Assembly: GCA_937127445.1 (NCBI GenBank) | Contig: CAKZLY010000008.1 | Location: forward strand, 1 to 34,552 | DNA: 34,552 nucleotides | Source: Eximiradius sp. | GTDB taxonomy: Bacteria; Bacteroidota; Ignavibacteria; Kapaibacteriales; UBA2268 | Direction: 5' to 3' | Part shown: positions 32,118 to 34,552 of the stretch, one piece after another | Position numbering within the stretch: the first letter of the stretch is position 1 | How the letters are laid out: each line of letters begins with the position of its first letter | Translations under genes and position numbers: made by a program | Notes under the pieces: generated by a model | What the model was told of the DNA's origin: nothing | What the model saw: the letters and a program-made list of their open reading frames with translations, nothing else | The model's database searches: none

Positions 32118-33314
32118 TTATTGTTTCTTTCCTACAAATTCAGCAAATTTTTTCCCGAATTCCCTTAATTTTCTTATTTCATTTTCGTCTGGCAACCATT
32201 GCGTTTTTGCACTTTCCTCAAATAATTCAAAACCAGAATTTTGAAGAAATTCATTAATAATTTTAACATTTGCGGGACTCCATCCATAGGAACCAAATGA
32301 AGCTGCTTTTTTCCCTTCAAGAGATAATCCTTTTATTTCTTCAAGAATTGCAGCCGTTGAATTCAAAATCCCATTATTATATGTTGGAGAACCAATCAAT
32401 ATTGCTTTGGAACGAAAAACTTCAGTTATAATATCGCTATTATCAGAACGTGCAGAATTGAAAATCTTCACAATACAATCTTTATCGATCGACTTTATTC
32501 CTTCGGCAATACTTTCAGCCATTTTCCGAGTGCTATCATACATTGTATCGTAAACTATCGTAATTTGATTTTCTTTATAATCATTAGACCACTCAAAGTA
32601 TTTATCGATTATTGTATTTATATCTTCACGCCAGATAATACCGTGTGCAGTTGCAATAATGCTAATCGGTAGGTTTAACGATTTGAGTTCTTCAATTTTC
32701 TTTACTGTTTTCTTGGCAAACGGTGCAATAATATTCGCAAAATATTTCAATGCTTCATAATATAAAATCTCTTTGTCTTCAATTTTATCATCAAATAGAT
32801 CAAAAGAAGCATAGTGCTGCCCAAAAACATCCGATGAGAATAATATGTTATCGCCTGAAAGAAAACACATCATTGTATCAGGCCAATGCAGCATCGGAGC
32901 TTCAATAAACGTAAGTTCACTTTTACCAAGTGATATTTTATCGCCAGATTTTACCGTTTGGAAACCCCAGTCTTTGTGATAATATCCTTTGATCGATTTG
33001 ACGCCATTTGCAGAGCATAATATTTTTGCATTTTTAGCTTGCTCGGCAAGAATTGGTAAAGCACCGCTATGGTCGGGTTCTGCGTGAGTTACAATAATAT
33101 AATCAATTTTATCTAACTTAATTTGTTTTTTTAAATTTTCGATAAATTCTTCTGCAAATGGCTTCCAAACAGTATCAATCACAGCAATTTTCTCGTCTTT
33201 AATAAGATAAGAGTTATACGAACTACCTTTATAAGTAGAAAGCTGTTTACCGTGAAATTTACGAAGTTCCCAATCAATCTTTCCCATCCAAATAACGTTT
33301 TCAGTAATTTTCAT
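32118..33314 (-). CDS. fprA: Flavodiiron protein (A-type), oxygen or NO reductase
   Basis: Cytoplasmic flavodiiron protein that reduces O2 to water or NO to N2O. The 398 residues have a metallo-beta-lactamase-like diiron domain: THAEPDHSG, supplying His77, Glu79, Asp81 and His82, then MLHWPD (His143), SSDVFG and a later TAHGIIWR. The C-terminal flavodoxin domain has VYDTMYDSTRKMAESIAEGI (FMN phosphate loop) and IGSPTYNNG. Length is normal for the class. No rubredoxin or other reductase is next door. A TAnnTTTG element lies at 33344-33351 (TAATTTTG on the minus strand), about 30 bases before the ATG. This fits a microaerobic or anaerobic organism that must detoxify O2 or NO. Confidence 0.95.
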   Translation of the reverse strand: MKITENVIWMGKIDWELRKFHGKQLSTYKGSSYNSYLIKDEKIAVIDTVWKPFAEEFIENLKKQIKLDKIDYIIVTHAEPDHSGALPILAEQAKNAKILCSANGVKSIKGYYHKDWGFQTVKSGDKISLGKSELTFIEAPMLHWPDTMMCFLSGDNILFSSDVFGQHYASFDLFDDKIEDKEILYYEALKYFANIIAPFAKKTVKKIEELKSLNLPISIIATAHGIIWREDINTIIDKYFEWSNDYKENQITIVYDTMYDSTRKMAESIAEGIKSIDKDCIVKIFNSARSDNSDIITEVFRSKAILIGSPTYNNGILNSTAAILEEIKGLSLEGKKAASFGSYGWSPANVKIINEFLQNSGFELFEESAKTQWLPDENEIRKLREFGKKFAEFVGKKQ

Positions 33315-33590
33315 AGCATAAATATCAATAATTTAACAAAGCACAAAATTAAATAAAATAATCAAAGTAAAAAAGAAAAGAGGTATTGCAGGATATAAAA
33401 AATATAAAATTAATTATTCTAAAATTTCACCTAAAAATAGCCAATGTTGATAAATAATTTGGGGATATTACCTCAGAAAACGAAAAAAGCTGCTTGAATA
33501 TGCAACCCGTCTTTTCGCCGAAAAAATCAACACTTCGTCCGAAACCTTTATCACTAACACCTTAGAAATCCACACATTTTTCGATTAATC

Positions 33591-33908
33591 CTATTGCTCT
33601 TCATTATCATCTTCATCGTCCATAAAAGTCTCGTCCCACCAAGAGTCGTCGTAATCCATCAACCCAATCTCGTAAAAATCCTCTCGGTACCTCTGCTTTA
33701 CACCTTCTCCGCAAAATGCTCTGTTCTGCTTTATAAGCTCTCTTGCTTTTGCAACTACTTCCGGCGACAATGGTTTCAAAGCGAAAGCATAAGGTAAAAT
33801 ACTGTTATAAAAATACATATCCGCCGAACACATCTTGCCTTTGACAAGCAGTATCCATTCTAACAAATCGGACTCAATTTCCTTTTTCAATTCTTCTTTG
33901 TTTTTCAT
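33591..33908 (-). CDS. Small acidic protein, unknown; second gene of a coupled pair
   Basis: A 105-residue protein from the ATG at 33908, chosen because that ATG sits in an ATGA overlap with the stop of the upstream 54-residue gene. An in-frame GTG four codons earlier is possible. The N-terminus is charged and helical (KEELKKEIESDLLEWI). The middle has CSADMYFYNSILPYAFALKP and LSPEVVAKARELIKQNRAFC, and the end is a very acidic tail (DESWW-like aromatics and 15 Asp/Glu in the last 20 or so residues). No signal peptide or known domain is recognised. It lies after the trailer end of the CRISPR array on the array's transcribed strand. A role in defence is only guesswork. Confidence 0.65.
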   Translation of the reverse strand: MKNKEELKKEIESDLLEWILLVKGKMCSADMYFYNSILPYAFALKPLSPEVVAKARELIKQNRAFCGEGVKQRYREDFYEIGLMDYDDSWWDETFMDDEDDNEEQ

Positions 33909-34069
33909 AAACTTTTCCACTTATTTTTGCTCGTTTTATGGAATTCAATTTCACCTTCTTTTGTGTTTTTGTAACGAAAATATTCCCTTATCCTGCCCAT
34001 CCAATAAACCACACACATATCCGCACTCGCCAAGATAATAGCGCTAACGACAAAACAAATATTCTCCAT
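33905..34069 (-). CDS. 54-residue single-pass membrane protein, unknown; first gene of the pair
   Basis: ATG at 34069-34067, stop TGA at 33907-33905. The product begins MENICFVVSAIILASADMCV, giving one hydrophobic N-terminal helix, and the rest is a basic cytoplasmic tail (GRIREYFRYKNTKEGE, then HKTSKNKWKSL). Its stop overlaps the start of the next gene as ATGA, the best evidence that both are real. No Shine-Dalgarno is visible. Its start is 20 bases from the last CRISPR repeat and no promoter is obvious in that gap. Short membrane peptides with a downstream acidic partner can be toxin-antitoxin or holin-like pairs, but nothing in the sequence shows this. Confidence 0.6.
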   Translation of the reverse strand: MENICFVVSAIILASADMCVVYWMGRIREYFRYKNTKEGEIEFHKTSKNKWKSL

Positions 34070-34089
34070 ATTTAACCATTAATGATACC

Positions 34090-34522
34090 ATTTCAATACT
34101 CTAATATAGTGCGATTAGAACGTGCGGTTGGTGCTGCTGTCTCGGCTGTCTTCGGAGATTCTTCAATACTCTAATATAGTGCGATTAGAACTCTTCACCT
34201 GTTTTATTGCCATTCAACAAATGTATATTTCAATACTAATATAGTGCGATTAGAACTTATATTTTAATAGGCGTTCTTTTACATTAATTTTTATTTCAAT
34301 ACTAATATAGTGCGATTAGAACTGATTATACTTTGCGTTTAACGTATCCCAACACACTATTTCAATACTAATATAGTGCGATTAGAACTTGAAATAGCTA
34401 AACAATGGATTATGTTAAACTTACCAAATTTCAATACTAATATAGTGCGATTAGAACGTTTCCATCTTTTTTAATTAAAAGTTCAGAGTGATATTTCAAT
34501 ACTAATATAGTGCGATTAGAAC
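34090..34522 (-). CRISPR. CRISPR array, seven repeats, right end truncated
   Basis: Repeats: 34090-34121 and 34160-34191 (32 bp), 34227-34256, 34293-34322, 34359-34388, 34428-34457 and 34493-34522 (30 bp, identical). Spacers are 38, 35, 36, 36, 39 and 35 bp. On the minus strand the 30-bp repeat begins GTTCTAATCGCACTAT and ends ATTGAAAT, the tail typical of type I-B and III repeats, with a CTAAT/ATTAG hairpin. So the array is read leftward and its leader is beyond the right edge. The left two repeats differ: both have an extra AG after the hairpin (CT on the plus strand), and 34160-34161 also differ. This degeneracy at the trailer end agrees with the orientation. No cas gene is in the window. 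Spacer 34122-34159 is GC-rich (23 of 38), unlike the host. Confidence 0.96.
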
Positions 34523-34532
34523 TATGTATTTA

Positions 34533-34552
34533 AGATCGGAAGAGCGTCGTGT
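34533..34552. other. Illumina adapter sequence at the contig end
   Basis: The final 20 bases read AGATCGGAAGAGCGTCGTGT, the standard start of an Illumina TruSeq adapter, and are not genomic. Only 10 bases (34523-34532) of the seventh spacer are real. The array is cut by the library or assembly rather than ending here. Confidence 0.97.

Follow-up and report, generated by a model that had tools for sequence, protein, structure and literature searches.

An acidic putative immunity gene and a probable broken toxin tail beside a type I-B CRISPR array in Eximiradius sp.

Does a pair of small overlapping reading frames that directly follows a CRISPR array belong to that array, or did it arrive there independently? 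The question is raised by one end of an Eximiradius sp. contig (G000:C8), which was analysed in its entirety and is referred to here as the window (34,552 nt). An initial annotation had described the pair as a single-helix membrane protein followed by a very acidic protein, had found neither of them recognizable, and had proposed a CRISPR accessory or toxin-antitoxin module, new in kind, that might be expressed by read-through of the array. The data presented below make it very probable that the pair consists of an orphan immunity gene and a broken toxin tail, both derived from cassette exchange of a MuF polymorphic toxin, phage-borne and presumably antibacterial, and that its adjacency to the CRISPR array is a matter of chance.

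The gene pair and the adjoining CRISPR array

Both frames lie on the minus strand, one of 105 codons (P0001, 33594-33908) and the other of 54 codons (33908-34069), and they overlap as ATGA, exactly as described before. The array (34090..34524, minus strand) shows seven repeats in the window and continues on another contig (C35), where copies of the same repeat type lead into an AT-rich leader-like stretch and then a cas operon in the order cas2-cas1-cas4-cas3-(cas5)-cas7-(cas8)-cas6. Of these genes, cas2, cas1, cas4, cas3, cas7 and cas6 were assigned by Pfam and the remaining two, cas5 and cas8, by position only; the gene order suits type I-B, as which the array was classed. Considering that the leader-like stretch and the cas genes are located at the C35 end, the array is read on the minus strand of the window, and the window end represents the trailer. 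The position of the pair at the trailer end and on the transcribed strand is thereby borne out. Its spacing agrees as well, the distance between the ATG of the 54-codon frame and the closest repeat core (34092-34121) being about 20 bp, with the first array copies at 34092 and 34162.

The window ends with 20 bases (34533-34552) identical to AGATCGGAAGAGCGTCGTGT, which we take to be the Illumina adapter, implying that the contig break inside the array is artificial; these bases ought to be trimmed from the contig. The two repeats at the trailer end (34092-34191) carry a 2-nt insertion, reading ACTCTAATA as compared with ACTAATA in all other copies seen.

P0001 has an intact reading frame and is predicted to be all-helical. 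Its acidic character was confirmed for the protein as a whole (25 D/E versus 14 K/R, pI 4.4), with the qualification that the acidic excess is found mostly within the last 25 residues. The codon score of 0.197 compares with a mean of 0.20 for the genes of the window and with -0.02 ± 0.08 for wrong frames. As the initial annotation had stated, neither product is recognized, and searches against Pfam, PHROGs, PADLOC and NCBIfam gave nothing significant for either of them. At the sensitivity of the respective searches, P0001 was without relatives among viral contigs, named genome contigs, phages and plasmids, and a sequence search of the PDB with the P0001 alignment gave no match; the AF2 model of the single protein was of low confidence (pLDDT 59), and a Foldseek search was uninformative. 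Promoter-like sites near the pair occur at chance level only, with no strong promoter in the ~20-bp gap, and the pair may be expressed by read-through of the array. A weak terminator-like hairpin lies 3' of P0001 (33487..33508, minus strand), of which about 0.5 are expected by chance. The hairpin is overlapped by a short open stub on the plus strand (KRKKLLEYATRLFAEKINTSSETFITNTLEIHTFFD, 33478-33587), which is part of the variable segment and has only chance-level matches elsewhere.

Relatives of both frames in a putative MuF-type toxin cassette

Among 54 genomes of the same family, P0001 has one real relative, found in a congeneric species (G025:C97; E 6.4e-5, 32% identity). Smith-Waterman alignment of the two proteins gave a score of 90, versus 35.5 ± 6.6 in shuffles (z 8.3). 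The relative, also acidic and 90 aa long (L019:9489-9761, minus strand), is encoded directly behind a frame for a putative MuF-type toxin (L019:9743-10279, minus strand; pI 9.7), which starts with a phage minor capsid C-terminal part (PF06152, E 4e-5, the MuF matches scoring under Pfam's cut-off) and ends with a basic domain some 95 residues long. The toxin stop overlaps a downstream start in G025 as well as in the window, and the ATGA junction is thus common to both loci. In G025 the MuF protein is represented by its C-terminal part alone, and because the N-terminal half is missing, the toxin copies of that genome may themselves be fragments. Downstream of the first pair, G025 carries a second toxin tail without a carrier, which by eye resembles the C-terminus of a CdiA_C-like domain, together with a second small gene.

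The toxin domain from G025 approached Colicin_D (PF11429) with an E value of 0.87, which is below the cut-off, and had no match in the PDB by sequence search; outside G025, it gave chance-level matches only, in 345 genomes of the phylum, in the family and in phages. Toxin and immunity gene have a single detected relative each. Weak matches to P0001 or to the toxin in G006, G051, G098, G180 and G250 were rejected as chance, being short and mostly located within long frames; the match in G006 lies inside a long frame that by eye encodes threonyl-tRNA synthetase.

The 54-codon frame is related to the same cassette. Frameshift-aware alignment of window positions 34091..33906 (minus strand) with the G025 toxin gave a score of 63, compared with 26.7 ± 4.2 (maximum 40) in 300 dinucleotide shuffles of the DNA and 30.7 ± 4.7 (maximum 47) when the toxin protein was shuffled 300 times. 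When 119 real proteins from the fetched loci were compared with the 54-aa region, the G025 toxin ranked first, and the next one scored 40. The match reaches the C-terminus of the toxin and changes frame inside the 54-codon ORF, which accounts for the failure of plain BLASTP to find it and for a p value of only about 0.009 in a plain Smith-Waterman comparison. The ORF is thus composed of a part of a frame-broken C-terminal toxin domain tail (33908..34035, minus strand, aligned to L019:9743-10279, minus strand) and of out-of-frame sequence. Owing to the frame change within the match, the hydrophobic N-terminal part, which gives the appearance of a membrane helix, falls outside the ancestral frame; the codon score of the ORF is intermediate between coding and non-coding, and the description as a single-helix membrane protein had to be abandoned. 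The frame change could come from a sequencing error, in which case the truncation would persist. With the remainder of the toxin and the MuF part gone and the frame shifted, the remnant, as judged from its sequence, would yield no toxin. The MuF N-terminal domain gave no match in the window or elsewhere in G000, whereas the relative in G025 has a MuF part.

These alignments bear directly on the idea of a classical chromosomal toxin-antitoxin pair, in which the 54-aa hydrophobic peptide would act as a type I-like membrane toxin. An N-terminus that is short and hydrophobic, with basic residues behind it, and the overlap of the genes would suit such a pair, but the toxin homology passes through the hydrophobic part in a different frame and amino acids 1-19 have a non-coding-like codon score, making this reading extremely unlikely. 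What stands of the toxin-antitoxin proposal is a module of toxin and immunity type; its toxin is broken, and its 54-aa frame is no membrane protein.

The window holds both a carrier-less toxin fragment and an intact immunity frame, the two marks of an orphan toxin-tail/immunity module, and P0001, the small gene directly downstream of the toxin fragment, is homologous to the gene in the same place in G025. It could be argued that the whole module is fully decayed, both frames being silent and P0001 being either a chance opening or a gene that died only recently. The broken toxin part, the lack of an evident promoter and the presence of this copy in one species only would agree with such decay, but P0001 is full-length and has gene-like codon use even though the adjoining toxin part is broken, and we consider complete decay unlikely. 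Other genomes contain further forms of these proteins: G013 encodes a complete MuF-type protein of 330 aa whose C-terminus is CdiA_C-like (E 0.001), and the 62-aa gene behind it is by eye related to the second small gene in G025. In G014, a MuF protein that lacks a toxin is encoded close to a Mu-like portal protein (E 7e-26).

Different modules at the orthologous site

The conserved flank of the module is formed by a gene for a diiron flavoprotein (ODP/metallo-beta-lactamase and flavodoxin domains; 32118..33314, minus strand), which is orthologous in G025. The window from 30024 to 33379 matches G025:C142 with 84.5% identity, and the match ends where the variable part starts. At the orthologous site and in the same orientation, G025:C142 carries a CdiA_C-like toxin tail (E 9e-4) and a small immunity-like ORF, a module unrelated to the toxin tail and immunity gene of the window. 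The examined stretch of G025:C142, a contig that starts inside the toxin tail, contains no copy of the repeat sequence of the window. The cas genes beside asnS are retained in G024, indicating that the CRISPR side is stable while the side of the flavodiiron gene changes. Differing modules at one site match the outcome of cassette exchange between polymorphic toxin loci, a process known to leave orphan toxin tails together with intact immunity genes (PMC3150448).

The same comparison speaks against a CRISPR accessory or toxin-antitoxin module expressed through array read-through. The location on the array strand, about 20 bp beyond the last repeat and behind a gap without a strong promoter, had suggested such a function, but the only clear relative of P0001 sits in a phage-toxin cassette without a CRISPR repeat, another module occupies this site in the sister species, PADLOC gave no match, and the 54-codon ORF belongs to a broken toxin tail. 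Recurrent linkage to arrays, put forward as a check of this proposal, did not emerge from 54 genomes of the family and about 300-400 of the phylum, with no array-linked relative in about 400 genomes searched. An accessory role in CRISPR defence is therefore very unlikely, and the proposal fails by the yardstick for refutation that the initial annotation had set.

Origin and possible role of the pair

Both parts have homologues in the G025 cassette, in the same order and with the ATGA junction conserved, and the module at the orthologous site has been swapped; together this argues that the pair arose through cassette exchange among MuF polymorphic toxins. P0001 would then be the cognate immunity protein, binding and neutralizing the small basic C-terminal toxin domain, whose toxicity we infer together with its target. 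The toxin would come from a related prophage or lysogen, either made by the lysogen or delivered by MuF. The 54-aa frame would be the residue of the toxin's C-terminal tail, the remaining toxin and the entire MuF part having been lost. The site upstream of the flavodiiron gene carries different toxin/immunity modules in different species of the genus, and the CRISPR array would abut the module by chance. The C-terminal toxin domain is probably a nuclease: the charge complementarity between toxin (pI 9.7) and immunity protein (pI 4.4) fits a nuclease/immunity pair, and the assignment is a guess in view of a toxin domain with neither a curated family nor a PDB relative.

Precedents exist for the parts of this arrangement. 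MuF toxins with small downstream ORFs are found in temperate phages (Jamet et al. 2017, PMC5576092), and the relatives described here similarly have a C-terminal domain fused to MuF2 (PF06152) with a short ORF after it; the window differs in having no MuF part and a broken tail as its only toxin sequence, and the reported MuF toxins are mostly from Firmicutes and their phages, whereas the present lineage is apparently neither. The orphan cdiA-CT/cdiI modules that occur in CDI and Rhs loci (Poole et al. 2011, PMC3150448) likewise consist of a carrier-less toxin-tail fragment and an intact immunity gene, and their content at one locus varies between related genomes. In contrast to these modules, the carrier here is a phage capsid protein rather than CdiA or Rhs, and the fragment in the window is far shorter and frameshifted, so that it would not serve as a toxin reservoir. 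For T6SS, immunity gene arrays are reported to remain after effectors have been displaced (PMC5361080); immunity genes outlast lost effectors in both cases, whereas a single immunity gene is present here and no secretion system was seen nearby. Contrary to the proposed novelty, the locus is not new in kind, as orphan toxin-tail/immunity remnants are already known.

A further scenario, that the orphan immunity gene is kept and currently expressed by array read-through as part of a combined anti-prophage island, is distinctly improbable. If true, one island would unite adaptive phage defence with an immunity protein against a toxin carried in the capsids of such phages. An 'unknown' gene pair beside a CRISPR array now has an explanation, which cautions against guilt by association with such arrays. 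The analysis adds a putative, so far unannotated immunity family and an exchange site for MuF-toxin cassettes, in a lineage where phage-capsid toxins occur across several genera.

Two minor observations concern the DNA of the toxin loci. The synteny breakpoint coincides with an exact duplication of 52 bp of the toxin gene (L067:507-558 and 70-121), which may be a trace of the route of cassette exchange. The toxin/immunity loci of G025 (L019:9340-9460; L030:326-378, 659-733, 1718-1808) contain many short palindromes (TCATCCGATGA, GGGCTCCACC/GGTGGAGCCC and CCTTCGGAAGG), which are possibly mobile or recombination-prone hairpins.
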